From positions 620,001 to 684,000 of the forward strand of contig JAWKAU010000036.1 of assembly GCA_033398695.1 (NCBI GenBank): DNA of 64,000 nucleotides, written 5' to 3'. Positions 29,032 through 48,587 of this stretch are shown here, piece by piece. Every line of letters begins with the position of its first letter. The first letter of the stretch is position 1. A program made the translations under genes and the position numbers. Below the pieces are notes generated by a model. The model was given only the letters and a program-made list of their open reading frames with translations. It did not search any database and was not told the DNA's origin. The stretch comes from Orobanche coerulescens (taxonomy: Eukaryota; Streptophyta; Magnoliopsida; Lamiales; Orobanchaceae).

Positions 29032-30720
29032 CTGTTGGGATTCGGTGCCTAAAACGAAGGCCCAGCGGAAGCAGTAAAACAAAAATTAATTCGATCCGAA
29101 TCCCTACGAGGATCGATCGAGCTACGCATATACGAATATAAAATAAACAATGGAAGATTCGAAATCATATCCTTGTCGTCCGTTGATTATATGGAGTTCG
29201 TTCTCTTGAGCTATTCCCCAAACGATCCAAAATGCTCCGAGCCCTTAAATGATCCAATGCCGAAAAAACCGCGTCTCTACTTGTCACGCGTCGGAGAAAC
29301 GAACGGAATGACAACGCTAGATTAACCTCTAAGGTTACGACTAGAATCAAGTGATGAAGCTTTATTATTTTAACACTCTAATTTATATCTCTCAATTTTA
29401 TCTCTTGATATTTTCTCCAAGAATATATCTCAAGAACAATGAATAAATGTGAAGACTTGAAGAAAAACTCTCTCTCTTTCTCTAGCTCAAATCACATATG
29501 TATTATCAATGTGATAAGATGAGAGTAGTCTTCCTTTTATTCTTCCAACCATATCTCCTCAAGCCCCCTTTACCATAAAATAAGAGATTTGATATCCCAT
29601 AAGTCATAAGTCTTACACCAACCATATCAAGACAAAGACCAAGGTAAGGAGTCAAGGTGGGGGGCGGCCTCTAGAAGGAATCGGATGAGTCTGGTTCGTT
29701 TCAAACTCCCGTGAGTCCAAACAGATAAACTCCGATTCCGTTCCGATGTATTTATATCGATCAATTAATCTAATTATTTAATAATATCAAATACATAATG
29801 ACATAATTAATTTCTCCAAGAAATAATTATATTCATGAATTAAATTAATCACCCGGTAATTTATTTAATTCATTAGGCCGTAAATTAATTTATCCAATAA
29901 ATTAATTTAGACATCAAATGTCCCAATTAATTAGATATCCAGTATCTAATATTCATAATGAGAGAATAAGTGTGATTCATTCCATTGTCAATCCTATTGC
30001 GCGACTCGGTAGGTCCGTCTCAGTCAGCAATGGGAGGAACCAAAGAGTAGTAGCACTACCTAGCCAGCCTGGCGGCCTACACTGTACCCCAACTGAGAAC
30101 GAATGATTGGGATCATTCAAGAACCATTCTGTCGTGAATACCAATATACGTATAAACCCTTCTTTCAAATGTCTCGATCAAGTTATAGGGTCACGGTCAG
30201 TCAAACCCTATCTGTTACTTGACGCTATGTATGCGTTAATGCAAATCGAGATCATCGAGCTCTCGTGTATTCAATACAACTAGCTCTAATGCTTTGGCCA
30301 AAGACTTATGATCTCATCTGCCAATAACCGCATAGGACATTTAACCCGCTCACTAATGGGAGAAAGAATTCTATCTTGGTATTCAGTAGGACCTGCTACT
30401 TGCCCGTCAAGATGCACGTCGAGGTTGACCCCCGCCTCCCAGTTTACAGGGTGGAACTACTCTAATGAAAATCTTGACGTCACAAGCACATCCCTACTAA
30501 ATCCTCAAGTCGAAGGTTCACAAATACCTATCACAACCTTTCGATTCCATCATTGATTGTCCCGAAGTGAAATCCGTGTGACGAATCGAGAGTGAGTCGG
30601 TTCGAGTATACTAATCCAATCAGCATGCCTATAACGTGTGCTCCCACTAACCATTAGGGTTCGACAAGCACTCTCCATGTCAAAGAACATGTCATACAAG
30701 TCTTCACATAAACTTAACGC

Positions 30721-32302
30721 TGACACGTTCTTAGTGTAACTATCGCAAGTGCACGATATCGTATCAAGTAGTAAAGTGGACTTTTTGAGTCCGGTTTACA
30801 GATCCCACAAGGAAGTTTGGTTATAATTTGAATTATACACTATTAGTCTATTTTTATAGATAAGATAAGTGAAACACACAATTAAAAAGTTTGATTTAAT
30901 AATTGCAAAGAAAATGCAATATTAGTTCTAATTATTTTAAGGAAATAAAAAGATAGCAATAATAATAGATTGATTAATGATAAAATGACATAGTTGGGAT
31001 TACAAACTTAGTTCGTCATTAGTTATAGAAGATGTATAGGAGATCATAAGATGAATTTACTTATTATGTTGTGTAGATTTTATTTTCCTTAAAAAGACGG
31101 TTTCTCTTTCGAACTATAAAACGCCCCTTACATATTGAATCAATCCACTATATTTCTATGTTGATTGGCTTCAATACATAGCATTAGGATTTATGAAAAT
31201 AACTCAATGAATCATCTAAGTACTAGAGGTATATTTCTATCCCCTAGAACAACTTAGAGTGAAGATCATTTGATCTAATCAAACATATTTTCTTTCGAAA
31301 CATATGAAGACCATAAATATCATCATTTATTGGCCAAATAAATAAAGATTGTTAAAACAATGAAAATCACACACAATAATAAGTAATTCACAATAGATCT
31401 TTATACAAACATAAATTACATGACTAACCTTGTTTATAATCCCAACTAAAGGTTACTTAGCCCATGAAGGGTTTATTATACATATTACAAGCTTTTGTGG
31501 TCATTATTAGTTGAATCAAGAGAAAGAATTGATCCTAACTCCCTTAGTAGATAAAGGAGATAAAACCAATAAACTCTCTGAACAACATATGCTATACCAC
31601 ACTTACAAATATCACTCAAGAATACAAGTGTGTTCTTCACACAAAAAGAAAAGTTTACAAAAAATGGAAAATTATAAGATGAATGATCAATGATGAAGGA
31701 TCTAAGGGGTCTATTTATACACCTAAAGTTATCTAATAGCTCCAAAACTCCAGCATTATTACATTAGATCGGATCAATGCCAGCCATCCCCTCAATAATA
31801 CACAAAAAGTATAAAAAATTAGACAAATCATAACAATCTGTCAAGAGTTACGGTCGTAACATTCAGGAGTTACGGCCGTAACAAGGATGACTTACGGCCG
31901 TAACTCCTGAATGTTACGGCCGTAACTTGGCTTCGTCAATTTGTTCCCTGGTTGCTTTGAGAGTTACGTTTTCAGCCCAGAATTTCTCAGACTTTGCGTT
32001 TTTGCCCCAAATCTTCTTCAGATGATAACTTTTGATATATAACTCTGATTTTGAATCCGGAAAGACTGCCGAATTCGTCTCGGAAAGCCCTACAGCATGA
32101 ATATATCAAAATTCAACAAAGAGAATATTTAATAAACATGTTATTTCTTGAGTAAATCAGTTATTTAATCCGATCATCATCCGATAAAAATAAAATTATT
32201 AAAACTAATTAATTAAAAGCAACAAACGAGTAGACTAGCTCAATTATGGGTGAATTTTATCGATACAAACCATGGATAAGTGTACAAAAATGACAATTAT
32301 CA
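30721..32302 (-). repeat. 3' LTR of element H
   Basis: 1,582 bp. It differs from the right LTR by scattered substitutions and two compensating indels: the right copy has an extra 22-bp palindrome-containing segment, and the left copy keeps about 22 bp around 32158-32182 that the right copy lacks. The TATA box on the minus strand is GGTGTATAAATAGACC at about 31709-31724. Confidence 0.9.
31847..31926 (-). promoter_or_regulatory. Palindrome array GTTACGGCCGTAAC in H 3' LTR
   Basis: Four copies at 31847-31860 (one mismatch), 31869-31882, 31892-31903 (12-base core) and 31913-31926, about 120-200 bases upstream of the TATA box on the minus strand. Flanks also mirror each other (ATTCAGGA / TCCTGAAT), so the block as a whole is a larger inverted repeat able to fold. 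Confidence 0.75.
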
Positions 32303-32325
32303 CACCCTCAAACTTGAATTCTTGC
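32303..32325 (-). other. Polypurine tract of element H
   Basis: Minus strand TTCAAGTTTGAGGGTG ends exactly where the LTR begins (TGATAATTG). This CAAGTTTGRGGGTG motif is the usual 3' tract of Athila/Tat elements. Confidence 0.75.
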
Positions 32326-33177
32326 GAGTCCCGAGCAAGACTCTTTATTATTCATGCTCCAAAAATAAAAATAAATATAAAACAAAAATAATAAAATTAA
32401 TACACACATAAATTAAAATATAAAAAGAGAAAAGGAGATCAAAATGCCATTAATACACAACAACCAGCTTATACAGGAGATATAAATGAATCAAGATTCA
32501 AAATAAATCTACAAATGATTTTGAAGTTAAAACACGGTTTTAGTATTGTAATTCCAAAATGTAAGGTTTCCCCCCAAAAGGTTGATTATTTCTTTCCCAC
32601 TCGTGATACACACGACTCCCTTTAATGGTTGCTCTTGATCACTCGTTTATTTTTCGACTCAATATGAAGAAGAATTTCATTGGCGTCATCAAATATTGTG
32701 ATTATTCACGAAATTGAGTGTATTGAAATTCAGCCGCTAATTAATTCAAATCTGCTCATAAACTACATCCCTTTTAGTGATAGCTTTCACACCATTATTT
32801 GATAACGTGTAGCTCTTTTCACTAACACAATTTCTATCTCATTTTTTTAAAAGGTGATAGCTTTCACACCGTTATTTGCTAACGTGTAGCTCTTTTCACC
32901 AATTTTTCTGAGACGGCAGCTACGCACCAACAATGGTTAGTCCTTTATTTTTCGCAAAACTTAAGACCTCCAAAATTAGGCAGCTGTTGCTGCTCAACAT
33001 TTCTCCTTTTCGTCATTTTTTTAGGTGATATCTTTCACACCGTTATTTGCAAACGTGTAGCTCTTTTCACCAATGACTCATTTTTTTTTAGGGAATAGAA
33101 TTTTTGCAGAAAATCATTTTTTAGTTAAGCATGAAAAATCAAAAACTCTACAAATTAAGTAAATTTCAGTTCTATTT
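32326..33177 (-). other. 3' non-coding region of H with three hairpin repeats
   Basis: No coding sequence. Three copies of a 48-50-bp unit occur at about 32777-32826, 32852-32902 and 33024-33074. Each begins GGTGATAGCTTTCACACCG (or a variant) and ends ACGTGTAGCTCTTTTCACC. Arms within a unit are partly complementary (GGTGA/TCACC, AGCT/AGCT, ACAC/GTGT, GTTA/TAAC), giving an imperfect hairpin with a loop near TTTGC. The remainder is A/T-rich. Confidence 0.7.
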
Positions 33178-33413
33178 TGTAATACCCAGTTGTAATTCAG
33201 TCATTATCGTTCAGTTCTTATCATTCAGTAATTGTCACTCAGTAATTTTTTTCGCTCATTAATGATCATTCATCGTTCATTTCATTTATTGTATTCACCG
33301 TTCGGAGTATATTGGTACTGCATATCAGTGTTATTTCATCATTCAACCCGGTTGGATAGTCGGGCCGAGCGTATCATCATCGTCATCTTCATGTTGGGCT
33401 GTGTGTGAGGAGT

Positions 33414-33980
33414 AACGCACGCTACGTACTCTATTTAGCGCGCGCTAATTGAGTACAGGTAGCGCACGCTACCACTCAGCATTAGCGCACGCTAATGTTG
33501 TCCTGGCTGCAGTCCAAAAGGCACTGGACTGCAGGTGAGTTATATGTAGCGCACACTACGAATGGTAAGTAGTGCGCGCTAGTAGGCCGGAGTAACGCAC
33601 GCTATGCAGTCGGTATAGAGCGCGCTAAGGTCGAATCTGGTTGAGTCCAGTGGCTACTGGACTGCATTGGATTAATTCATAGCGCACGCTATGAGTGGTT
33701 TTTAGCGTACGCAATCGATATTGTAGAGCACGCTAAATATTGATTGTAGCGCATGCTACCGCGATCAGATCAGAGGACAGAAGGTTCTGGACTCCAGTAC
33801 TGGGCATCAGATAATTCGTTAGCGCACGCTAACATTTTGGGTTTAGCGCACGCTAAGTGTTCAGCCGTAGCGCACGCTACAAAAAGGTACGTAGCGCGCG
33901 CTACCGTTGTCGGACAGTGAGTACTGGACTTACCATAACACCCGTTAGCGCACGCTAAGAACTGGGGCTAGCGCACGCTA
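33414..33980 (+). promoter_or_regulatory. Palindrome array TAGCGCRCGCTA in F 5' LTR
   Basis: About sixteen copies of TAGCGCACGCTA or TAGCGCGCGCTA (the latter a perfect palindrome) and near variants, spaced 20-60 bases. The last copy ends 11 bases before the TATA box. Comparison with the other LTR shows that many differences between copies are C/T or G/A changes at CpG inside the motif, as expected of methylated DNA. Confidence 0.8.
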
Positions 33981-33990
33981 CACTGGAATT

Positions 33991-34000
33991 TCTATAAATT
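33991..34000 (+). promoter_or_regulatory. TATA box of F 5' LTR
   Basis: TCTATAAATT directly after the last palindrome copy, with downstream GGACAGTGTAG. E has the same core (TCTATAAATAGGACAGT, minus strand). The 3' LTR copy is at about 40928-40936. Confidence 0.7.
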
Positions 34001-35643
34001 GGACAGTGTAGCCCAGATTTCGTCATTTGTCATTTCTTCTTTTCTCTCTTCGGTTCCGGGCGATTTGGAGCGATATGGAGAGTATTCTTCGAGGTGTAAT
34101 CATCAATCATCATCTTCAAGCGTATAAGCCGGAGTAATCATCATTTCATCACCTCCAAACATCAAATATAAGGTATTAATCTCTTGGATCTAGAATTCGA
34201 ATTTTTGGATTTTTCCTTCCGATTTCTTCGTGTAAGCTTGGATTATTGTTGGAATATGTTAGATATGAATTATCTACCTTGGATAAAAATATTCCTACGG
34301 ATTTAATGGCTATTTTGGGGATTAATTCAAGAACCCTTTGGGTTGACTTCTGTTAATTTGGGGATTTTCCGATTGATGTTGTGTAATCTTGAATTGTGGA
34401 TTCCTATTGGATTATTGATGTCATTGATATTGTTTTTCTGGTTTGAATCAATCATTTGAAAGTTGGTTTCGATAATTTGGGTTTGGTTATAACCGACGGG
34501 AAGGATATTCTCAACGTATTCGTTAGAGTACATCTACGAGTTTGGATATTGTTGTGTCGACGTTTGATATGGTTGTAATTGTGTTTGATAGGTATATTGA
34601 ATGGATTATTGGTAATTGTGTTATTCAAGGTTGTTCGAGCAACCAGCATTTCATTTAGGACGTTGTTCGTGGACAGACATTCTTCACCGGTTGAGTAAGT
34701 TAATTCTTACTCGGTTAAAAGGATATTCATTCCTTTTGTTATTGTTCATTCATAATCATAATTCATTCATCATTGTATTAACCGTATTAAGATTTGTAAT
34801 TGTCGAATAATCACTTCATTCACGAGGAACGACGGTTCCAATCATTTCATTGAGTTATCAATCACTTCACTGTTATTTCCATCTCGGTGAGTCATTCTTG
34901 AACTTGTTGAATTATTATTCATTGATATTCATTGTGGTCATTCTCGTTCATATGACCTTATGGGTTCATATTGCGTGGCCGGGTGCGGATGTGTGGAATT
35001 TTTAGTCGGGCACGCTATGGCCATGTATTGGGAGTGATACATTGGGCTGTGCACACGGTAAAGATTAACTCCGTGAGACTAATTAGGTACAAGGACGGGT
35101 GTGTCCGGTCATCTGTCTTGTACACTTGCACAGAACACTACGGGCGTACTATGATACTCCTCTTCAGCGTAATTCATAACTAAGGATATTTTATAACTAA
35201 AGATATATCACGATTGTGTATTTTCAACTCTTGAGGATTGTTGTTCTGTGTAACTGACCCCGGCTGGGGATTTTGTTTTTCAGGTCATGGCAAGGCAAAA
35301 GCACGTGAATAGCTTGCTGACGGCGAAGAGTCCCAGTGATACTAGTAAGGGGCCCTATTCTTTCCAGTTATTCATATTGTTGTCATTTATTTTCCACTGC
35401 AGATTTTCATTTAGATACTCCGTTTCATTCATTGTTGTGTATTTTATCTTCATATAAAATACACTAGTATTCGGTATTGTCCTGGTGTGTTGTAATTGAA
35501 CTCCTCATCGGAGTAATTATTGTTGTAATGTGGTTCGGTACTACATTTACCCTGTGTAATTCATTCATTTTCATTTGCCTGGTGGGTCCCAGTCGGGGAT
35601 CTACGGCACTGTAATATCCGCCTAGTTTGGGGTGTTACAGAGT

Positions 35644-35656
35644 CGGTATCGGAGCG
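35644..35656 (+). other. Primer-binding site of element F
   Basis: CGGTATCGGAGCG, tRNA-iMet type with a changed first base, four bases after the LTR end at 35639. The leader (35657-36194) has no gene. Confidence 0.75.
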
Positions 35657-36194
35657 TGGTTTTGAATACTACCTTCCGAGTCATGTCTCATTTGAAATCA
35701 TCGTCATTGGACTAGTATCATTAGACTTTCGCGTCACGTGTGACCTCTGCAGATGCCGAGCCAATCAAACCGAAAGAACTGTAAGACTTCTAACGCCATG
35801 GTATAATTTCTGGCAATAATTATTCATTCATAATTCAATAGTTAACAATCCTCAAACATCATTTTCATTTTAATCATGTTGATCATATTAATTCATTATT
35901 CACTCAATTCATTTCATTACACAGTTGATGATCAGGACGATCATGTTAACTCATTAATCACTTAATTCATGTCATTACTCAGTTGTTGATCTGGAAGATC
36001 ATATCTTTAACCTTGTTAATTTGTTCAAGATTATCATTTCAATAATTTCATTAGATAATCATGTCACCTCAGTTAATCATTCATGTAATTACTGTGTTAT
36101 AGCGCATATGCACATTTTCATCATTTCATGACGTAAATCATAATGCGGTACTTATACGGGATCTATGATTATCATGTGACCTTCTTACTTCAGT

Positions 36195-36965
36195 ATGGAG
36201 AGAGCTGTCAGGGGATGCACGGGGAGAGGACGCGGTGCGGGCCGAAACCCAGGAAATAATCACTCGCCGTTGGGAAATCGTACCCAGGACTCGGCTCGAT
36301 CAGAAGATGTTCGGGTTGATCCACTCAATTTTATGCAGGTCATGATGACCCATATGCAATTGCTCAATCATCATTGCGCCACTCTGGCCGGATTAATCGG
36401 GAGAACTCTCCCGAATGAGCCTGCTGCTAAGGAAATTGTTGAGCAACAACCTTCATCTGGCAGCAAGAAATCAACGAAGCGTAATCAATCTGAAGGCGGT
36501 CAGTCAACCTTCAAGAAGCCTCGTGTGAGTCCTATCGTTTCTGAGCAACCTCCTACGGCGCATAATCGTACGGGATCTCAGTCCCGAGCGGCCAGTTCGG
36601 CCATCACCTGTTTCAACTGTGGAGCGCCGGGTCATTACAGCACTAAGTGTCTGAAACCGTCTATCGCGTGCCATAATTGTGGGAATTTTGGGCATAAGGC
36701 CCGTTTTTGCCGAAAGGACTCCAAGTCGGCTCCGGCGGCATCTCAGGCCCCGAAGCAATCAGCGATTCAGAATCAGACTGCTCTGTCAACGTCATTTAAG
36801 ACATTGGAAGAAAATAAAGTTGGAGCTCATATTTATCAGACGGGAGCATCCGGTTCGGGGGCCGGCAAGTCCCGGATTCATGTGATGAAGAGGATCGACG
36901 ATCCGGTGGCCCGAATGATCTCAGGTATACTCGTAATTTTATTTCATCTTGTGTGTACCTTTTGA
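36195..36965 (+). CDS. gypsy gag C-terminal region with two zinc knuckles (element F)
   Basis: Open for 256 codons from MERAVRGCTGRGRGAGR. It contains a Gln/Ser-rich middle and two intact CCHC knuckles, CFNCGAPGHYSTKC and CHNCGNFGHKARFC (about residues 137-180), which bind element RNA. The frame ends LVCTF at 36965, one base short of the protease active site. The N-terminal capsid part usual in this clade is not seen upstream, so gag is short, as in C. Confidence 0.82.
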   Translation: MERAVRGCTGRGRGAGRNPGNNHSPLGNRTQDSARSEDVRVDPLNFMQVMMTHMQLLNHHCATLAGLIGRTLPNEPAAKEIVEQQPSSGSKKSTKRNQSEGGQSTFKKPRVSPIVSEQPPTAHNRTGSQSRAASSAITCFNCGAPGHYSTKCLKPSIACHNCGNFGHKARFCRKDSKSAPAASQAPKQSAIQNQTALSTSFKTLEENKVGAHIYQTGASGSGAGKSRIHVMKRIDDPVARMISGILVILFHLVCTF

Positions 36966-37326
36966 TACTGGTACACCGCATTCATTCATTTTCGAATCAT
37001 GTTTGAATAGACTTATTTTAGGATAGTCCTATTGCTTGTGGGCCTCATACCATCGGTCTACCTGAAGATGGAAGAATTTTCGGAAATCATACCGAAGTAA
37101 GCTTAATGACCGCGATTGGTTGATGGACCTAATCGTGGTGAGATTTATCTAAGGATGATGTGATATTAGGTATTAGTTGGATGGATCGTCATGATACTAT
37201 CCTTAGTGTTGTAAGCGTTTGGTCACTATGTTTCCGTCGTTGGTTGTCGAATGTGTGCCTCAGGGAGGTAATCCCCGTTGTTCCAGAAGAATTATTATTA
37301 TGATGGAAGCAGAGAGATTCCTCAAT
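36940..37326 (+). pseudogene. gypsy protease and protease-RT linker (element F), broken
   Basis: After a one-base deletion the active site reads FDTGTPHSFIFES (about 36960-37000), then sequence like C's protease with small indels. Recognisable text runs to LNR near 37326, where the 56-bp repeat begins. The protease would process Gag-Pol; here it is out of frame. Confidence 0.75.
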
Positions 37327-37480
37327 CGAGTTGTTCTATCATTCATTGTATCATTTTCATCGATTGGCCGTTTTAAGGCAATCGAGTTGTTCAATCATTT
37401 ATTGAATCATTTTCATCGATTGACCGTTCTAGGGCAATCGAAATGTTCATTCATTTGTGGTATCATTGTCATCGATTGAC
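37324..37480 (+). repeat. 56-bp minisatellite inserted in F pol
   Basis: Two full 56-bp units (37324-37379, 37380-37435) and a partial third (to 37480), each with AATCGAGTTGTTC and CATTTTCATCGATTG. In C the same place holds about 90 bases of pol, from CTCAATCAGGG to the codons before VFPDELPG. F therefore has replacement, not simple insertion. The reverse complement of the unit matches the 56-bp array in the LTR of I at 51245-51515; my base-by-base comparison of one pair gave 7 differences in 56. Confidence 0.85.
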
Positions 37481-38275
37481 GATGTATTCCCAGACGAGTT
37501 ACCTGGTTGCCTTCACATAGAGTTGTGGAATTCACGAGTGAGTTGGAGCCCGGTACATCCCCGTCATCGAAGGCACCATACCGGATGGCCCCGACCGAAA
37601 TGCAGGAGTTGAAGATTCAACTAGAGGAATTGTTCGAGAAAGGTTATCTCCGACCGAGTGCGTCCCCGTGGGGAGCACCAGTGTTGTTCGTCAAGAAGAA
37701 GGATGGTTCGTTCCGTATGTGTAGTGATTATCGGGAGTTGAATAGGGTGACAATCAAGATTAAGAGTCCCTTACCCCGTATTGATGATCTCTTAGATCAA
37801 CTTCAGGGAGTTTCAATATTTTCCAAGATCGACCTAAGATCTGGATATCATCAGTTGCGAATTCGAGAGTCGGGTATCGCAAGGACAGCGTTTCATACAC
37901 GCTATGGTCATTATGAGTTCGTAGTTATGCCGTTCGGGCTAACTAATGCACCTGTGGTATTCATGGAGTTAATGAATCGGGTTTTCATCGACTTTTTGGA
38001 TCAGTTTGTTGTTGTCTTCATCGATGACATTTTAATTTATACTCGTGACCGAGAGGAACACGAGGTACATCTTCATCAGGTTCTCGACGTGTTAAGACGC
38101 GAGCAACTTTATGGAAAGTTTTCTAATGTGAGTTCTGGATGTCCGAAGTGACTTTTCTCGGGCATGTAATTTCATCAGACAGAGTTCGTGTCGACCCTCA
38201 GAAGTCGGAGGCTATCCGAGATTGGCAACCTCCGAATAATGTTTAGGAAATCCGAAGTTTCCTCGGATTAGCAGG
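37481..38275 (+). pseudogene. gypsy reverse transcriptase (element F), 3' part truncated
   Basis: Main open frame 37507-38151. Seen are [60 protein letters not shown] (first catalytic Asp), [20 protein letters not shown] and [15 protein letters not shown] (catalytic Asp pair). All core RT motifs are intact in one frame. The frame ends near 38151; thumb sequence continues to FLGLAG at about 38265 and is then cut. Confidence 0.9.
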
Positions 38276-38600
38276 TTAATTATCCGACCCACGACCTGGA
38301 GCTGGCAGCCGTGATTTTCGCGTTGGAAATTTGGCATCGATACCTTTATGGCGTCAACCGTCAGATCTTCACTGATCACAGGGGTTTAAGTGTATATTTA
38401 CCCAGAAGGAGTTAAATATGCGACAAAGACGGTGGTTGGAACTAATCAGAGATTACGATATCGAGATCCTTTACCACCTGGGCAAGGCGAACGTTGTCGC
38501 CGACACCTTGAGTTGTAAGTCTGTTCAGGAGCAGATGCTTGCTCGTTTAACAGTTCAGAAGGAACTTCAGCAGGAATTTTTGAGAACCGAGATCGAGGTC
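38271..38600 (+). pseudogene. gypsy RNase H remnant (element F), N-terminal half deleted
   Basis: RT thumb sequence is joined near 38275 to the middle of RNase H ([23 protein letters not shown], then IFTDH near 38360). The first catalytic Asp block present in C (YSDASG) is missing, a loss of several hundred bases. The remainder continues through the linker with EILYHLGKANVVADTLS (about 38465-38515). Confidence 0.85.
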
Positions 38601-38639
38601 TGGTTACAGTGAGTACAAGGGCAACTTTGTACGTTAGAA

Positions 38640-39560
38640 ATTTCATCTTCACTTGAGGAGGCGATCCGGGAGAATCAGGGTTCAGACCCAGCAATGTTGC
38701 ACATTCGTGAGGATGTGGCTCAGGGGAAAGCCCCTGGATTCGTGATCCACGAGGATGGACTTTTGAGATTTAAGAATCGGTTGTGCGTACCGGCGATTTA
38801 CGAGTTGAGAAACTCGATTTTGAGAGAAGCTCATGCTACCCCTTATTCGGTTCATCCGGGGTCTAGCAAGATGTACAAGGACTTGAAACTATATTACTGG
38901 TGGAGTAATATGAAGCGATAAGTCGCAGAATTTGTTTCAAGATGTTTAACCTATCAGCAAGTCAAGATTGAACATCAGCGACCGGCGGGTATGCTGAAAC
39001 CTCGCCCTATTCCAGAATGGAAGTGGGAAGATATTTCTATGGATTTTATCACGAGTTTGCCGACGAGTCGTCGCGGCATGAATACGATCTGGGTGATTGT
39101 GGACCGCTCGTCTAAATCAGCTCATTTCCTTGAGATTTAGGATATGTGGGGTCCCGAGAGACTTGCCCAGTTATTTATCAAAGAGATAGTGAGATTGCAC
39201 GGTACTCCCAAAAGTATCGTTTCCGATCGTGACAGACGATTCGTGTCTCATTTTTGGAAATCAGTTCATCGTGCCATGGGAACTCCGCTTAATCTCAGTA
39301 CTGCTTTTCATCCTCAATCCGACGGACAATCAGAGAGAACCCTTCAGACATTAGAGGACATGTTGAGGGCATGCGTCCTCGATTGGAAAGACGACTGGGA
39401 AGCCCAACTACCATTGATCGAGTTCACGTATAATAATAGTGGCATGCTTCGATCAAGATGGCGCCTTACGAGGCCTTGTACGGTCGACGTTGTAGATCTC
39501 CTTTGTGTTGGGACGACCTATCAGAATCAATCGGCACCGAGCCCGATATGCTTATAGTCG
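38640..39560 (+). pseudogene. gypsy integrase (element F), broken
   Basis: Pieces 38694-38921 and 39144-39557. The zinc domain has HATPYSVHPGS; the second pair is damaged (RCLTCQQ in C reads with Tyr for Cys here). The MDFITSLPTSRRGMN block with the first Asp is readable near 39040. Core SDRDRRFVSHFW and HPQSDGQSERT hold the other catalytic residues. Stops at 38919 and 39138 and a frame change near 39440 interrupt it. Confidence 0.85.
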
Positions 39561-40080
39561 CCCGAGAGAAGGTAGCTTTGATCAGGAGTCGTTTGTTGAC
39601 CGCTCAGAGTCGACAGAAATCTTATGCAGACACTCGTCATCGACCACTAGAGTTCGAGACGGGCGACCACGTTTTGGTCAAGGTATCCCCGAGTCGAGGT
39701 ATTTTTCGTTTCGGAAAACGGGGGAAGTTGAGTCCGAGATTCATTGGACCGTTTGAGATTTTGGATCGAGTAGGCGAGTTAGCTTATCGGTTGGCTTTAC
39801 CTCCGGCGTTGAGCTGAATTCATAATGTGTTTCACGTCTATCAGTTGCGGAAGTATGTTGCCGACCCGAGTCACATACTTCAGTTCGAAGAAATCGAGAT
39901 CGCCGATGATCATTCATATGAGGAGCGTCTTATACGAGTTTTAGAGCGGCGAATCAAACAGTTGAGAAATAAGGCGATTCCTTTGGTTAAAATTTAGTTG
40001 TCTAGACACGGAGTCGAAGAGGCTAATTGGGAAACCGAGGATAGTATGCGGGAGAGTTATCCCGAATTGTTTGACCCTTA
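39458..40080 (+). pseudogene. Integrase C-terminus and chromodomain (element F)
   Basis: Open 39458-39817 with DHVLVKVSPSRGIFRFGKRG and LSPRFIGPFEILDRVG, then a stop (TGA at 39815), then NVFHVYQLRKYV and a chromodomain-like stretch ending ESYPELFDP just before 40080. The chromodomain has the aromatic and acidic pattern of chromoviral tails (IPLVKI, HGVEEANWE). One further stop lies near 39997. Confidence 0.82.
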
Positions 40081-40096
40081 GTTTCGGAGACGAAAC

Positions 40097-40115
40097 TCTT
40101 TTAAGGGGGGGTGTA
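40097..40115 (+). other. Polypurine tract of element F
   Basis: CTTTTAAGGGGGGGTGTA directly before the 3' LTR start at 40116. It is the mirror of the tract of C. Confidence 0.8.
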
Positions 40116-42576
40116 TGTAATACCCAGTTGTAATTCAGTCATTATCGTTCAGTGCTTATCATTCAGTAATTGTCACTCAGCAATTTTTTTCGCTCATTAA
40201 TGATCATTCATCGTTCATTTCATTCATTGTATTCACCGTTCGGAGTATATTGGTACTGCGTATCAGTGTTATTTCATCATTCAACCCAGTTGGATAGTCG
40301 GGCCGAGCGTATCATCATCGTCATCTTCATGGTGGGCTGTGTGTGAGGAGTAGCGCACGCTATGTACTCTATTTAGCGCGCGCTAATTGAGTACAGGTAG
40401 CGCACACTACCACTCAGCATTAGCGCACGCTAATGTTGTCCTGGCTGCAGTCCAGAAGGCACTGGACTGCAGGTGAGTTATATGTAGCGCACGCTACGAA
40501 TGGTAAGTAGCGCGCGCTAGTAGGCCGGAGTAACGCATGCTATGCAGTCGGTATAGCGCGCGCTAAGGTCGAATCAGGTTGAGTCTAGTGGCTACTAGAC
40601 TGCATTGGATTAATTCATAGCGCGTGCTATGAGTGGTTTTTAGCGTACGCAATCGATATTGTAGCGCACGCTAAATATTGATTGTAGCGCACGCTACCGC
40701 GATCGAATCGAGAGGGCGAAGGTTACGGACTCTGAATCGGCATCAGATAATTCGTTAGCGCACGCTAACATTTTGGGTTTAGCGCACGCTAAGTGTTCAG
40801 CCGTAGCGCACGCTACAAAAAGGTACGTAGCGCGCGCTACCGTTGTCGGACAGTGAGTACTGGACTTACCATAACACCCGTTAGCGCACGCTAAGAACTG
40901 GGGCTAGCGCGCGCTACACTGGAATTTCTATAAATTGGACAGTGTAGCCCAGATTTCGTCATTTGTCATTTCTTCTTTTCTCTCTTCGGTTCCGGGCGAT
41001 TTGGAGCGATTTGGAGAGTATTCTTCGAGGTGTAATCATCAATCATCATCTTCAAGCGTATAAGCCGGAGTAATCATCATTTCATCACCTACAAACATCA
41101 AATCTAAGGTATTAATCTCTTGGATCTAGAATTTCGAATTTTTGGGTTTTTTCTTCCGATTTCTTCTTGTAAGCTTGGATTATTGTTGGAATATGTTAGA
41201 TATGAATTATCTACCTTGGATAAAAATATTCCTACGGATTTAATGGCTATTTTGGGGATTACTTCAAGAACCCTTGGGGTTGACTTCGGTTAATTTGGGG
41301 ATTTTCCGATTGATGTTGTGTAATCTTGAACTGTGGATTCCTATTGGATTATTGATGTCATTGATATTGTTTTGCTGGTTTGAATCAATCATTTGAAAGT
41401 TGGTTTCGATAATTTGGGTTTGGTTATAACCGACGGGAAGGATATTCTCAACGTATTCGTTAGAGTACATCTACGAGTTTGGATATTGTTGTATCGATGT
41501 TTGAGGTGGTTGTAATCGTGTTTGATACGTATATTGAACGGATTATTGGTAATTGTGTTATTCAAGGTTGTTCGAGCGACCGACATTTCATTTAGGACGT
41601 TGTTCGTGGACGGACATTCTTCACCGGTTGAGTAAGTTAATTCTTACTCGGTTAAAAGGATATTCATTCCTTTTGTTGTTGTTCATTCATAATCATAATT
41701 CATTCATCATTGTATTAACCGTATTAAGATTTGTAATTGTCTAATAATCACTTCATTCACGAGGAACGACGGTTCCAATCATTTCATTGAGTTATCAATC
41801 ACTTCACTGTTATTTCCATCGCGGTGAGTCATTCTTGAACTTGTCGAATTATTATTCATCGATATTCATTTTGGTCATTCTCGTTCATATGACCTTCTGG
41901 GTTCATATTGCGTGGCCGGGTGCGGATGTGTGGAATTTTTAGTCGGGCACGCTATGGCCATGTATTGGGAGTGATACATTGGGCTGTGCACACGGTAAAG
42001 ATTAACTCCGTGAGACTAATTAGGTACAAGGACGGGTGTGTCCGGTCATCCGTCTTGTACACTTGCACATAACACTACGGGCGTACTATGATACTCCTCT
42101 TCAGCGTAATTCATAACTAAGGATATTTTATAACTAAAGATATATCATGATTGTGTATTTTCAACTCTTGAGGATTGTTGTTCTGTGTAACTGACCCCGG
42201 CTGGGGATTTTGTTTTTCAGGTCATGGCAAGGCAAAAGCACGGGAATAGCTTGTTGACGGCGAAGAGTCCCAGTGATACTAGTAGGGGCCCCCGTTCTTT
42301 TCAGTTATTCATATTGTTGTCATTTATTTTCCGCTGCAGATTTTCATTTGGATGCTCCGTTTCATTCATTGTTGTGTATTTTATCTTCATATAAAATACA
42401 CTAGTATTCGGTATTGTCCTGGTGTGTTGTAATTGAACTCCTCATCGGAGTAATTATTGTTGTAATGTGGTTCGGTACTACATTTACTCTGTGTAATTCA
42501 TTCATTTTCATTTGCCTGGTGGGTCCCAGTCGGGGATCTACGGCACTGTAATATCCGCCTAGTTTGGGGTGTTACA
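40116..42576 (+). repeat. 3' LTR of element F, with palindrome array
   Basis: 2,461 bp, same termini as the 5' LTR. The palindrome array runs from about 40351 to 40916 and ends with a perfect TAGCGCGCGCTA (40905-40916) before the TATA box at about 40928. A short stretch near 40710-40740 differs from the 5' LTR by several clustered changes; otherwise differences are scattered. Confidence 0.92.
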
Positions 42577-43281
42577 TATTTTTCATCAACGACTGATTCT
42601 TCTTTTCTCAAGGTAACGAATGACTCGATTTTATATGATAACTACAAGGTTTGGTAAGAGTGCTTAAGGCTAAAAAATTTTGGAATATACAAATTTTTTA
42701 CCGGTTAAAACGTTTTTAGAAGCTTGTATATAGTTATTTTATTGGTGTTATGGCCAGATCTAGAAATCTCAAAAATCAAAATACTATATATATATATATA
42801 TATAAATTAAGGCAAATAACCAAATCAATCAAAACACACCAAAATAATTAAACAAACCACCCCCAAACTTGAAAATAAAACTGTCCTCAGTTTAAAAATA
42901 AAAAATAAAATAAAATAAAACTCAATGCAGAAAAGCAGAATACTCCCTGTTAAGAAAGTTGATGTCTGAGCTAACGCCTTTTAGAATCTGCAAGAGAATA
43001 AATATACGAGGCACACAATAAAAGAAAATAAAATATATTCGTAAGTATAACACAATTTTTAAGATTCGCATCAAGAAAGTCCGAAGAGTCGCCTTACGCT
43101 GCCATCAAAGTTTTTATAAAAGCAAAACACGCAATAAAAATTACAGCAATAAAATAACAATACATAAATCGCGAATAGATGCGCGTCAAGAGATCAAGAA
43201 GAAACTCCTTAAGCTGCCATCATTTAGCACGATTATTACACACGACAGAAAGTAAAAATACAAGAGGTCCGACATGGGTTA
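42577..43281 (-). other. H 3' region downstream of the LOG gene
   Basis: Non-coding, A/T-rich. It contains a (TA)n run at about 42782-42806. On the minus strand, TTCAAGTTTGGGGGTGG at about 42852-42868 is an Athila-type PPT-like motif far from the LTR. Two imperfect copies of a segment ending CTGCCATCA lie at about 43070-43105 and 43180-43222. Nothing here looks like pol. Confidence 0.65.
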
Positions 43282-43939
43282 TCAAAGGGAGAGGAATGAA
43301 TCCACTTTTCGTTTTCTCACGGTAAAATAACCTACCCAGAAAATTTTAGCTAGAGCTGGATCTGGTTGAGGAACAAATTCATTGAGTTTTTCGATTAGTT
43401 CTTCTGGTGTTGTTGCAACGACTATGATTAGTTTAGCACGCTCGGAAATAAAACCCTTTTTCAGTAGAGTAGTCGATGAAAGACAGTAAACCATCAAAGA
43501 AACTATTGACATTAAGCAGACCTATTGGTATTTGATGAACATTTAGCTGGGCTCTGGTAACCACATGAAAAAGTTCCTCAAGGGTGCCAAAACCACTGGG
43601 AAGGGTGATAAAGGCGCCAGAATTATTTATCATGTGAGTTATGCGATCTTGCATATTTACAGATCTAAACTCATCTCCAATAGTTGACCCAGTGATTTTA
43701 CTTTCAGCCAGAGGTTTTGGGATTATTCCCAACTCTCTTACTCCTTCCATATAGGCAGAAGCAGCAGCTCGTCCCATTAGTCCTAGACTTCTTCCTTCGT
43801 AAACTACATGAATGCATTTTTCTCCTAAGGTACGACCCAAGTTGTGGGCTGCTTCAGTAAAGCATGCCTCTTTTCCATAACTAGCTCCACCAAAAATGCA
43901 GACTGTGCTAAATTTTTTTGTTGAAGATGATGACTCCAT
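43282..43939 (-). pseudogene. LOG-like: LOG-like cytokinin riboside 5'-monophosphate phosphoribohydrolase gene inside retrotransposon H
   Basis: LOG enzymes release active cytokinin bases from nucleotide precursors in the cytosol. This copy is open for 168 codons (43939-43433), then shifted by one extra T in a T run (43450-43453 on the + strand, AAAA). The shifted frame continues to 43282 with KLNEFVPQPDP and the family's C-terminal shape, for a total near 218 codons, the usual LOG length. Family marks: N-terminal VCIFGGAS (residues 13-20), SLGLMG (51-56), the conserved Arg in NMQDRITHM (residue 99), and LPSGFGTLEE (113-122) where the family has PGGxGTxxE. GLLNVNSFFDGLLSFID follows. Changed residues are PGG to PSG and the YGGG-type loop to YEGR. 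Plant LOG genes normally have several introns; none is present here. Same strand as gag-pro. Confidence 0.88.
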
Positions 43940-44020
43940 TTTTGAAAAGAAATTTTTTTTTTAGAGAGAAACAGAGAAAAGTGCAAGTTTGAGGTGTGAA
44001 TGAAAGAAACAAGCACAAAG

Positions 44021-44033
44021 TTTATTTATAGAA
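44021..44033 (-). promoter_or_regulatory. Possible TATA box of the LOG-like gene
   Basis: Minus-strand TTCTATAAATAAA lies about 82-94 bases before the LOG start codon. Between them is a pyrimidine-rich leader (CATTCACACC, TTTCTCTGTTTCTCTC), and the start context is AAAAATGG. This is the layout of a plant core promoter and 5' UTR. It may be a captured promoter or chance in AT-rich DNA. Confidence 0.5.
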
Positions 44034-44337
44034 GAAAAAGAAGGTAAAAATTGTTTAACAAGTTTGTGATTGCGTTGAATGCGCTTCAACTACTCAATAG
44101 AATAATGAAAGCATTTATCGCGTATCACATTTTTTTATTCAGAAAATCTCACCACACGACAAAAATAAAAGATACTTACGCGTATGTATAGTAGTTGTGA
44201 TTATGGCTCACATCTTCCTCTGATTTTATATTCAGAAATGGCTTAAACACCTTCTAAGAGTCGGGGAGAAGCTTCCCATCCAATTTTCTTATAAATTGGC
44301 AAACTGGGTCTTTTAACGTCAGATCCCAAGACATTGT
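44034..44337 (-). other. Spacer between protease and LOG gene in H
   Basis: The 250-300 bases after the protease stop. Minus-strand text just downstream of the protease is weakly open to about 44250 and then stops. No RT, RNase H or integrase motif is present, so pol has been lost or replaced here. Confidence 0.65.
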
Positions 44338-44892
44338 TCATATTATGGCATCAATTGCATCAATTTTTAGACAATAATCATCTGTGGAGGGATGATTCAA
44401 AGTTTTTAGGACTTTGAAGGTGGCATGTTCGTCTTGCACTCTAAGAATTAGCTTTCCTTCATAGACGTCAATAAGAGCATGTCCGGTTGCAAGAAATGGC
44501 CGTCCCAAGATAATAGGAATATCCTGATCTTCCTCCATGTCAAGGATGATAAAATCTGCAGGAAATATAAATTTATCAACCTTGATTAGCACATCTTCTA
44601 TTATCCCATGTGGATATTTGATTGATCGATCGGCTAATTGCAGTGAAACTATTGCTGCTTTTGCTTCTCCCAAGTTTAGTTTGTTGAAAATTGATAGGGG
44701 CATCAAATTGATACTTACCCCTAAATCACAAAGAGCTTTGTCAATATTCACTTCACCAATTGTACACGGGATTGTAAAAGTTCCCGGATCTTTTAGCTTG
44801 GGTGGCAACTTCTTTTGTAGTATTGCGCTACATTCCTCTGTTAGCACGACAGTTTCATATTCTTCAAGCCTTCGTTTGTTAGAAAGAATATC
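44338..44892 (-). CDS. Athila-type aspartic protease (element H)
   Basis: In frame with gag after a single TAA at 44893-44895; open from there to 44338, with the first Met at 44847. The active site reads ALCDLGVSINLMPLSIF, the Athila-type DLGAS motif with A changed to V. The flap/C-terminal block DIPIILGRPFLATGHALIDV has the usual ILGRPFL. It would cut the Gag polyprotein. Length and order match the gag-protease part of Athila elements; the frame then ends instead of running on into RT. Confidence 0.9.
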   Translation of the reverse strand, partial: DILSNKRRLEEYETVVLTEECSAILQKKLPPKLKDPGTFTIPCTIGEVNIDKALCDLGVSINLMPLSIFNKLNLGEAKAAIVSLQLADRSIKYPHGIIEDVLIKVDKFIFPADFIILDMEEDQDIPIILGRPFLATGHALIDVYEGKLILRVQDEHATFKVLKTLNHPSTDDYCLKIDAIDAII

Positions 44893-46626
44893 TTACATAA
44901 ATTTGGCATAGCTTGGCATTTGTGCTAGAGCATCGGCAAAAGGTATGTTGATGTGTAGCTTTTTGAAAATTTCCACAAATTTGCCGAATTGCGCATCGAG
45001 CTTGTGATTCTTCAACCGTTGAGGAAAAAGGATAGGTGGAACATAAGATTTGGCAGCAACTGGACCTTTTTGAGATGAAGGTCCTGATTCAGATTCTTTT
45101 TCTGTTTCTCGACTTTGTTTATTTTTTTGTTTTGTCAGATGATTTTCCACAGAAATCTCAGGCAATTGCACTCCACTTCTTGTTGTGATAGCCTGGACAC
45201 TCTCCCTTGGATTTACCTCGGTGTTGCTAGGTAACATTTCGTGGGATCTTTTGGAAAGTATTTTGGCCATTTGGCCAAGTTGTGTCTCCAGATTTTTAAT
45301 TGAAGCATCATTGCGTTGTTGATACTTCAGTTGTTGTTCGGATAGCTTCATGATTGCTTCTTCCCACCCAGGCTTCTTTTCTTGATGTGTTGGATTCAAC
45401 ACATTATTGTTGTTTGCATAAGAAAATTTTGGATGATTTTTGTACCCTGGATTGTATGTTGGCCCGTGAGGATTGTATGCTTGCCTTTGGAAATTCTGAG
45501 CATAGGCCACTTGTTCTGGTGGTGGGAATGATTGCTCCTGTTGCGCTAAGGGACAGATAGTGCTGTTGTGAGTTGCTCCACAGATTTCACATGAAAGAGC
45601 TAAAACTTGTGGAGTTTGCACCGTCTTCACAGATTGAGGAGTTGAAAAAGACATGTCCTCGACTTTCTTTGATAAAGCTTCAATTTTTGCCAACATAAGT
45701 GAATAAGAATCCACTTCAACAACGCCATTTGGTTTCTTTTGGATATTTCTATCTGGCCATCTTGCACTTTGTTCACTTATAACCTCAAAAAGATTATAAG
45801 CCTCTCTCATAGTTTTGTTTCCAAGTGAACCATTTGATGATGAATCGACATTGGCTCGGCATGTAGGTAAGAGTCCAGAATAGAAGTAATTGACTTGTGC
45901 TCCCAAATTGAAACCATGGTTAGGACATTTTCGTAGCATATCTTTGTATCTCTCCCATGCTTCGTGAAATGACTCCGAATCTTGTTGACGAAATGTAGAG
46001 ATTTCGTATTTGAGTTTCGCCACTTTTATTGGTGGAAAGTATTTAGTGGTGAATTTTTGAACAAATTCGGGCCAATTTGTTATGCTTCGTGGTGGCAAGG
46101 TATCTAGCCACTCTCTTGCTCTGTCCTTCAAAGTGTGCACGAAAAGTCTCATTTTTATCGCCTCATCATTTACATTTGGATATTTGAAATTTCCACAAAT
46201 CTCCATAAAACGGTTAATATGGAGATATGGATTCTCATCGGTTCTTCCATAGAATGAGTTGTTGTTGGAGAAGAGATTGATGACATCGGGGCGAATTTGA
46301 AAATTGTCCACTCCAAATGGTGGATAGATCACACTTGATTGCACGCTCAAAGATGGGGGGTTTATGAATTCCCCAAAAAGCATGTTGTCTTCATCTATTT
46401 CCGGCACAATAGGATGTTGTTGATGTTGAATGTTTTGAGCATTGGGTATTCCCCCTACCAGAGGAATTCTTTCGTTATCATTTTCTTGGAGGAGTGGTGG
46501 GTTTGGTTCGTCCGCCATTGATGGTGAAGAAATACGGCTTGTTTTTTGTTCTCTTCGCCTTCTTCTAAATGTGGCTTCAATCTCGGGATCTAGTGAAACT
46601 AAATCGCGATTGTACGTCCTTCGCAT
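44893..46626 (-). CDS. Athila-type gag (element H)
   Basis: Open frame of about 577 codons. I place the start at MRRTYNRDLVSLDPEIEA (46626), matching the usual short basic N-terminus; an upstream Met at 46647 is in frame. The capsid core has NPYLHINRFMEICGNFKYP, REWLDTLPPRSITNWPEFV, FTTKYFPPIKVAKLK and FHEAWERYKDMLRKCPNHG. The zinc knuckle CEICGATHNSTIC (CX2CX3HX4C) lies mid-protein, followed by a Gln/Asn-rich stretch and MPSYAKFM at the stop. The frame has no break, so H still could supply particles. Confidence 0.92.
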   Translation of the reverse strand: MRRTYNRDLVSLDPEIEATFRRRRREQKTSRISSPSMADEPNPPLLQENDNERIPLVGGIPNAQNIQHQQHPIVPEIDEDNMLFGEFINPPSLSVQSSVIYPPFGVDNFQIRPDVINLFSNNNSFYGRTDENPYLHINRFMEICGNFKYPNVNDEAIKMRLFVHTLKDRAREWLDTLPPRSITNWPEFVQKFTTKYFPPIKVAKLKYEISTFRQQDSESFHEAWERYKDMLRKCPNHGFNLGAQVNYFYSGLLPTCRANVDSSSNGSLGNKTMREAYNLFEVISEQSARWPDRNIQKKPNGVVEVDSYSLMLAKIEALSKKVEDMSFSTPQSVKTVQTPQVLALSCEICGATHNSTICPLAQQEQSFPPPEQVAYAQNFQRQAYNPHGPTYNPGYKNHPKFSYANNNNVLNPTHQEKKPGWEEAIMKLSEQQLKYQQRNDASIKNLETQLGQMAKILSKRSHEMLPSNTEVNPRESVQAITTRSGVQLPEISVENHLTKQKNKQSRETEKESESGPSSQKGPVAAKSYVPPILFPQRLKNHKLDAQFGKFVEIFKKLHINIPFADALAQMPSYAKFM

Positions 46627-46709
46627 AGACAAGAGAATTAACAACAAAGAAAAAGTTGTATTTATAACAATAGTTAATAATGTAATACTTCAAAATAACT
46701 CTTATACTT

Positions 46710-46726
46710 CCCCGACAATGGCGCCA
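46710..46726 (-). other. tRNA-Asp-type primer-binding site of element H
   Basis: Minus strand TGGCGCCATTGTCGGGG, six bases inside the LTR. It differs by two transitions from TGGCGCCGTTGCCGGGG, the primer site shared by Athila/Tat elements and complementary to tRNA-Asp. Confidence 0.8.
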
Positions 46727-46732
46727 AAAACT

Positions 46733-48314
46733 TGACACGTTCTTAGTGTAACTATCGCAAGTGCACGATATCGTATCAAGTAGTAAAGTGGACTTTTTGA
46801 GTCCGGTTTATCGATCCCACAAGGAAGTTTGGTTATAATTTGAATTATACACTATTAGTCTATTTTTATAGATAAGATAAGTGAAACACACAATTAAAAA
46901 GTTTGGTTTAATAATTGCAAAGAAAATGCAATATTAGTTCTAATTATTTTAAGGAAATAAAAAGATAGCAATAATAATAGATTGATTAATGATAAAATGA
47001 AATAGTTGGGATTACAAACTTAGTTCGTCATTAGTTATAGAAGATGTATAGGAGATCATAAGATGAATTTACTTATTATGTTGTGTAGATTCGATTTTCC
47101 TTAAAAAGACGGTTTGTCTTTCGAACTATAAAACGCCCCCTACATATTGAATCAATCCACTATATTTCTATTTTGATTGGCTTCAATACATAGCATTAGG
47201 ATTTATGAAAATAACTCAAAGAATCATCTAAGGACTAGAGGTATATTTCTATCCCCTAGAACAACTTAGAGTGAAGATCATTTGATCTAATCAAACATAT
47301 TTTCTTTCGAAACATATGAAGACCATAAATATCATCATTTATTGGCCAAATAAATAAAGATTGTTAAAACAATGAAAATCACACACAATAATAAGTAATT
47401 CATAATAGATCTTTATACAAACATAAATAACATGACTAACCTTGTTTATAATCCCAACTAAAGGTTACTTAGCCCATGAAGAGTTTATTATACATATTAC
47501 AAGCTTTTGTGGTCATTATTAGTTGAATCAAGAGAAAGAATTGATCCTAACTCCCTTAGTAGATAAAGGATATAGAAGCAATAAACTCTCTGAACAACAT
47601 ATGCTATACCACACTTACAAATATCACTCAAGAACACAAGTGTGCTCTTCACACAAAAAGAAAAGTTTACAAAAAATGGAAAATTATAAGATGAATGATC
47701 AATGATGAAGGATCTAAGAGGTCTATTTATACACCTAAAGTCATATAATAGCTCCAAAACTCCATTATTATTACATTAGATCGGATCAATGCCAGCCATC
47801 CCCTCAATAATACACAAAAAGTATAAAAAATTAGATAAATCATAAGAATCTGTCAAGAGTTACGGCCGTAACATTCAGGAGTTACGGCCGTAACAAGGAT
47901 GACTTACGGCCATAACAAGGATGACTTACGGCCGTAACTCCTAAATGTTACGGCCGTAACTTGGCTTCGTCAATTTGTTCACTGGTTGCTTTGAGAGTTA
48001 CGTTTTCAGCCCAGAATTTCTCAGACTTTGCGTTTTTGCCCCAAATCTTCTTCGGATGATAACTTTTGATATATAACTTTGATTTTGAATCCAGAAAGAC
48101 TGCCTAATTCGTCTCGGAAAGCCCTACAACATGAATATTTCAAAATTCAACAAAGAGAATATTTAATAAACATGTTATTTCTTGAGTAAATCCTGATAAA
48201 AATAAAATTATTAAAACTAATTAATTAAAAGCAAAAAACGAGTAGACTAGCTCAATTATGGGTGAATTTTATCGATACAAACCATAGATAAGTGTACAAA
48301 AATGACACTTATCA
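46733..48314 (-). repeat. 5' LTR of element H
   Basis: 1,582 bp. Palindrome copies lie at 47859-47872, 47881-47894, about 47904-47915 (one mismatch), about 47926-47938 and 47947-47960, one more than in the left LTR. The TATA box (minus GGTGTATAAATAGAC) is at 47721-47735. Hence U3 is 47736-48314, with the palindromes 125-240 bases upstream of TATA. No gene inside. Confidence 0.92.
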
Positions 48315-48587
48315 AACGCCCAGTCAAGTTTCATTGACTTGCGAACGATTAATTATTTGAGCTATAAACCTTTCCACTGCCGACCCCCTTATCCAATAAG
48401 GAGTGGAACGTTTTTGCTCTCAAATACATGGACTAGTTTCTATACGTATATTTATGAGTTAGAAATGCCAGTAACTACCAGTAAATAAAGAAACATCCAT
48501 TGCCTTATATTAATTATTTACATAATTACAAGTACAATGCCCTCACTCAACATCCTCTGAGTGGAATTCGAGGGCATACTCCCAACA

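Follow-up and report, generated by a model that had tools for sequence, protein, structure and literature searches.

A family of non-autonomous long terminal repeat (LTR) retrotransposons in the broomrape Orobanche coerulescens carries an intronless gene of the LONELY GUY (LOG) family and probably uses it as a gene of its own. The family includes element H, which occupies positions 30721-48314 of a 64,000-nucleotide stretch, hereafter the window (contig JAWKAU010000036.1, positions 620,001 to 684,000 of the forward strand). A preliminary description of the window had placed an intronless LOG-like gene on the strand of gag-pro, 0.4 kb past the protease and between two LTRs that share the target site duplication (TSD) AACGC. 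Our analysis confirms this arrangement: the gene (43282..43939, minus strand) is recognized by PF03641 and TIGR00730, and AACGC is found on both sides of H (48315..48319 at the 5' side, 30716..30720 at the 3' side). The open reading frame (ORF) at 43433-43939 (minus strand), of 168 residues, matches PF03641 (Lysine_decarbox) at 3.9e-26 and scores 126 bits against TIGR00730 (cut-off 96). As found by tblastn with 218-residue broomrape LOG proteins, the rest of the gene continues in a shifted frame to 43285, with the stop at 43282-43284; the frameshift falls near 43451-43464. A TATA box, TATAAATA, lies 91 nt before the ATG (44023..44030, minus strand). LOG proteins of type I are marked by GGG and PGGxGTxxE motifs and an Arg residue. 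In the window's copy the first motif has changed from GGG to EGR and the catalytic one from PGG to PSG. Judging from the frameshift and the two motif changes, the LOG copy of H is probably dead.

LOG is not confined to the window. The LOG protein found 13,164 first-look candidates in the O. coerulescens genome; here and below, such candidates are unconfirmed copies, and only the scored rows were checked. All 150 scored rows matched and were dispersed, 142 of them free of stops over the matching stretch; the window's own copy matched at 100% identity and the others at 90-96%. Twenty LOG copies, drawn from the first 57 of these 150 rows, were fetched with 10 kb each. At least part of the spacer that separates pro from LOG in H is common to all 20. 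The noncoding DNA that directly follows LOG in H (42577..43281, minus strand) is likewise present in 20/20, with only 130 bp of it in copy L045, and genome-wide it gave 3,354 first-look candidates, with a match in each of the 40 that were scored. The distal part of the same 3' noncoding DNA (32303..33177, minus strand), which in H ends in the polypurine tract-like AAGTTTGAGGGTG before the 3' LTR, was found in 19/20. H-type LTRs flanked LOG on both sides in 13 of the 20 copies and on one side in three. Thus, the carriage of LOG by an LTR retrotransposon family, proposed from the window alone, is borne out by DNA of H on both sides of LOG in every fetched copy and by the junction copies described below. 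A second LTR type, of about 1.75 kb, was present in four fetched copies (L048, L056, L057 and L058), two of which have it at both ends. The module of LOG and the upstream frame ORF1 is the same under this second type in all four, an LTR exchange.

Only one fetched copy, L045, contained gag-pro; in the interior of the other 19, on the element strand, no gag, protease or pol query matched at E 1e-3. The common carrier has the plan LTR - ORF1 - LOG - LTR and measures about 6.5 kb. Exact 5-bp TSDs (CTAAG and GGACA) and TG..CA ends delimit elements of 6,495 and 6,527 bp. The LTR pairs diverge by 0.0115-0.055 in the 14 fetched copies that have a pair, a primer binding site with the strict pattern TGGCGCC[AG]TTG[CT]CGGGG was detected in 11/20, and the LOG TATA box, at -87 to -92, in 19/20.

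ORF1, of 181 residues, lies between the primer binding site and LOG, some 860 bp before the start of LOG (L057:4309-4851 is an example). It was recognizable in 18 of the 20 fetched copies, L045 having only its last 34 codons and L050 none. Genome-wide, ORF1 gave 11,701 first-look candidates; 150 of 150 scored rows matched at 95-100%, 139 without a stop, and 11 of them adjoin a LOG row on the same strand (by eye, with the best 150 rows of each). All five open copies tested matched PF01623 (Carla_C4) at E 0.1 or better, with a best value of 4.8e-6; in three copies the scores were 22.1, 26.5 and 26.1 bits (cut-off 20.9), covering about 30-33 of the 91 profile positions. All five also matched PF05515 (Viral_NABP) at E 0.1 or better (best 4.8e-5), with scores of 19.9, 22.4 and 23.9 in three copies, one of them above the cut-off of 23. 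No shuffled version of ORF1 matched either profile (0/8). By these profile matches, ORF1 carries a carlavirus-type nucleic-acid-binding signature. Searches with ORF1 gave no match among plasmids, a chance-level match only among PHROGs, and nothing below E 0.8 in the PDB.

The gag-pro form, to which H belongs, is also multi-copy. A 1,001-bp query spanning pro, spacer and LOG gave 5,368 first-look candidates, of which 40 were scored; 36 were within one base of full cover and the other four covered at least 964 of the 1,001 positions, with 92-100% identity, the window's copy included. In H, the 584-residue gag (44893..46647, minus strand; PF03732) is followed, in the gag frame after one stop, by an aspartic protease (44338..44847, minus strand) that scores above the cut-off for PF08284 and below it for PF13650. 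The gag of H found 58,618 first-look candidates, and 75 of 75 scored matched; five of these are listed with open frames of 1,204-1,404 residues, and many of the closest copies with 783. Behind the protease stop, and by arithmetic in frame with it, lies a relic of ORF1 (44257..44325, minus strand) that corresponds to codons 159-181 of the carriers' ORF1 (tblastn, 91%, 2.7e-9). Because only these last 23 codons remain behind the protease, H probably represents a replacement form: most simply, gag-pro would have entered an element with ORF1 and LOG and displaced most of its ORF1. H is not the typical carrier, and the element that captured LOG was probably another one. The preliminary description had H lose pol and capture LOG. 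No pol was found in H: tblastn with four proteins holding gag and pol domains returned gag-protease matches only, and the reverse transcriptase (RT) of the element nested in H gave a single 14-residue match to H, at E 0.24. The ORF1 relic and the common carriers that lack gag-pro nevertheless make a gain of gag-pro in place of ORF1 likelier than a loss of pol and a capture of LOG by H.

TIGR00730 was above its cut-off in all seven LOG proteins tested, the window's included. An AlphaFold model of an O. hederae LOG protein (predicted local distance difference test, 80) superimposes on At2g37210 (2a33) with a template modelling score of 0.95 and 47% identity, and on this model the carrier-borne LOG is of LOG fold and family. 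In a tree of 125 rows, the LOG of H groups with Orobanche sequences (support 100), and this group is nested within a divergent clade of eudicot LOGs (support 99) that is separate from AtLOG3 and AtLOG8.

We then asked how the copies have changed along their phylogeny, using 29 LOG copies of the O. coerulescens genome picked by protein score, for which the neutral ratio of nonsynonymous to synonymous changes (N:S) is 2.5-3.3. On inner branches we counted 8 nonsynonymous, 4 stop and 18 synonymous changes (N:S 8:18, or 12:18 with stops), and on end branches 141, 13 and 85 (141:85, or 154:85 with stops). The two ratios differ (Fisher p 0.0027 without stops, 0.016 with stops). The mean pN/pS was 0.41, and pS, at 0.054, was near the value for the noncoding DNA that precedes LOG (0.066). 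A second data set comprised 67 proteins of O. minor, O. hederae and O. gracilis, with the columns divided into those conserved (80) and those variable (138) in other eudicots. The ratio of conserved to variable column changes was 44:143 on inner and 240:471 on end branches, so that changes at conserved columns are rarer on inner branches (p 0.008; on a collapsed tree p 0.001-0.028; column permutation 79/5000). On end branches the changes per column were 3.0 at conserved and 3.4 at variable columns, near-equal rates as expected for dead copies. The few amino-acid changes on inner branches, together with the kept TATA box, are sequence evidence pointing to selection on LOG. For ORF1 the N:S was 35:30 on inner and 138:85 on end branches (neutral 3.28); its pS of 0.12 exceeds the noncoding divergence of 0.058, suggesting that some frames are misaligned, and this N:S is therefore only supportive.

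These counts bear first on the possibility that LOG is a passive passenger, captured once and copied without use by a successful family, the open copies being merely young. That most single LOG copies decay (13/20 frames not fully open), that the window's own copy is broken, and that, among the matches listed, just 30 of 61 one-member Orobanche clusters and 3 of 8 with 2-4 members (scorable clusters only) keep the LOG motifs intact would all fit a passenger. However, inner-branch changes are far below neutral or below those of end branches in the two data sets, LOG persists together with its TATA box under either LTR type and also where gag-pro is present, and the GGG, PGGxGTxxE and Arg motifs are intact in 9 of the 12 clusters with at least five members among the same matches. 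We consider a passive passenger unlikely. It is more improbable still that the broomrape itself keeps and uses many LOG copies, for instance in haustorium growth, and tolerates the element. A cytokinin signal does start haustoria in Phelipanche ramosa (PMC5853424, consulted in part), but the copies are dispersed and many are decaying, and end-branch changes at conserved columns (240 over 80) come close to those at variable ones (471 over 138), which suggests that single LOG insertions are hardly protected. Finally, that LOG is a processed retrogene inserted separately and accidentally into H, as its lack of introns would allow, is scarcely credible. The segment includes a TATA box, although such a box stands ahead of the start of the mRNA that it would drive and so outside a retrogene. 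No duplication brackets the gene beyond what shuffling gives (the longest shared word is 10, that of shuffles mostly 8-11), and the H flanks are common to 40/40 scored junction copies and 20/20 fetched copies; the separate insertion that the preliminary description had named as a refuting case finds no support in these data.

Several observations weigh against the view that the family uses LOG as its own gene. The LOG frame is fully open in only 7 of the 20 fetched copies and that of ORF1 in only 5, and strict TSDs were found, by a crude rule, in only 2 of the 14 copies with an LTR pair. Each of the five long gag frames (1,204-1,404 residues) is also listed with internal stops, and the helpers are putative. 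Picking LOG copies by protein score lowers the nonsynonymous counts, mostly on end branches. The cytokinin-specific equivalog NF058542 reached 79-127 bits in 7/7 proteins, with a cut-off of 300; as this model belongs to an annotation library made for bacteria and archaea, the low score does not decide membership. In addition, the RK motif of AtLOG3 and LOG8 has another residue in place of its Lys in almost every row, those of the clade included and Xanthoceras excepted, so that enzyme activity is not certain.

Related high-copy LOGs occur in other plants. A public protein search with LOG gave 214 matches, and the best 120 hold 91 Orobanche clusters, all in one clade and together comprising 825 member sequences, the cluster representatives coming from three published genomes. 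Multi-copy LOGs of Reevesia, in the divergent clade, form at least 42 clusters with 176 members (among the best 120 of 4,876 matches) and, counting from their names, those listed are on 18 chromosome tags. The high-copy LOGs of the three other Orobanche species and of Reevesia are presumably element-borne. In Xanthoceras, whose LOG falls just outside the divergent eudicot clade, the LOG gene model P0242 has a C-terminal stretch of gag (about 139-182) between two LOG parts, with a score reached by 0/2000 shuffles; this hints that gag and LOG may be neighbours in Sapindales too. No Gag-LOG fusion protein of Orobanche was present among the best 120 of 311 gag matches. Scans of viral contigs with LOG, gag, the LOG alignment and ORF1 found nothing, and a poplar-type LOG matched 22 loci among genome contigs, all titled bacteria. 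Comparison of the tails of broomrape LOG proteins with the flanks of H was weak when sliding (40/1000 and 9/1000 random places reach the score); when anchored, 26/100,000 did so by score, a result superseded by the genome copies. Among the LOG proteins listed from outside the high-copy Orobanche clade, 91 of 109 terminate in LxLxL, the pattern of an EAR-like repression motif, which follows a basic stretch in the examples printed; most full-length Orobanche LOG copies end in FLSL or similar.

Presumably, the association of LOG with the element is older than the split of the Orobanche species. Gag, RT and integrase would be supplied in trans by related elements. As LOG lies in sense, its introns would have been lost if the RNA of the element was spliced before reverse transcription. 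The gene may be expressed from its own promoter, and a product of the cytokinin riboside 5'-monophosphate phosphoribohydrolase (LOG) family could release free cytokinin in the cells that transcribe the element; this might favour dividing cells and so help the element to reach the germ line. ORF1 may act as a nucleic-acid-binding factor or as a silencing antagonist. More tentatively, and with considerable doubt, the family could be a selfish retroelement of a new kind, with a host-manipulating cargo, ORF1 and LOG, in place of replication genes; together the two would quiet silencing and keep cells dividing while borrowed retrotransposon machinery copies the element. The LOG lineage concerned may long have travelled in elements across eudicots (Lamiales, Malvales, Malpighiales).

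The remaining parts of H are those of an LTR element. The 5' LTR (46733..48314, minus strand; 1582 bp, with TG..CA ends) and the 3' LTR (30721..32302, minus strand) are 94.9% identical, with a Kimura two-parameter (K2P) distance of 0.0254 over 1560 aligned sites. Directly inside the 5' LTR, at 46710..46726 (minus strand), lies TGGCGCCATTGTCGGGG, which we take to be a primer binding site of tRNA-Asp type. With its PF03732 gag, protease, tRNA-Asp type primer binding site and 5-bp TSD, H shows traits of Athila/Tat-type Ty3 elements, of which gag and protease are missing from the common carrier form. The label Athila is presumed for H, as is its RT lineage: no RT was found in H or in 19 of the 20 copies read. 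Between LOG and the 3' LTR of H is a nested Ty3 element (33178..42576, plus strand; TSD TATTT), which is not part of H. The LTRs of this element are more diverged than those of H (K2P 0.0333 and 0.0254, respectively); as the nested element is necessarily younger, unequal rates or conversion are implied. Palindromic short repeats were noted in the LTRs, of the TAGCGCACGCTA type in the nested element (40340-40920) and of the TTACGGCCGTAA type in H (47854-47960).

Should the protein prove active, very many copies of a hormone-activating gene have been spread through the genome of a parasitic plant by a mobile element that keeps selecting for it, and the gain that a transposon may draw from changing host development becomes directly testable. 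For annotation, gene-family counts built on the listed broomrape LOG 'gene' clusters (at least 825 member sequences) could mislead. No LOG-carrying retrotransposon appeared in the titles and abstract starts of the open-licence PMC literature, a set that leaves subscription papers and preprints outside. By term search, 'cytokinin' does not occur in a 2026 review of gene capture (PMC13317346), and neither 'cytokinin' nor 'LOG' occurs in the main text of the three-genome Orobanche paper (PMC13192451).

Captured genes in plant LTR elements are already known as a kind. Bs1 of maize is a plant LTR retroelement with captured host coding sequence (PMC13317346, PMC7264820), and, in the part of the review consulted, none of its segments has full-length ORFs (PMC13317346). 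The LOG family resembles Bs1 in holding host coding sequence within a plant LTR retroelement and differs in that its enzyme gene is full-length, has a TATA box of its own and is present in a high-copy family (20/20 copies read, all chosen by LOG). The extra ORFs termed aORFs (the Athila env-like gene and those of Grande, RIRE2 and Retand) are described, in the part consulted, as an additional gene that lies internally and that most copies of a family retain (PMC7264820). Here too an extra gene lies in the internal region of an LTR element family; unlike the aORFs, LOG belongs to a recognized host gene family and its common carrier lacks gag, protease and pol. TR-GAG, BARE-2 and LARD elements are mobile LTR elements that depend on helpers. 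In contrast to these, the common form described here also lacks gag, yet it keeps two ORFs of non-retroviral type. At the tomato SUN locus, Rider moved a gene that affects growth (PMC13317346, consulted in part). Both cases involve a growth-related gene moved by a retrotransposon, but SUN is one transduced segment, whereas LOG is a family-wide gene that appears to be under selection. Against this background, a high-copy family with LOG and a virus-type ORF, and without gag or pol, appears to be new.
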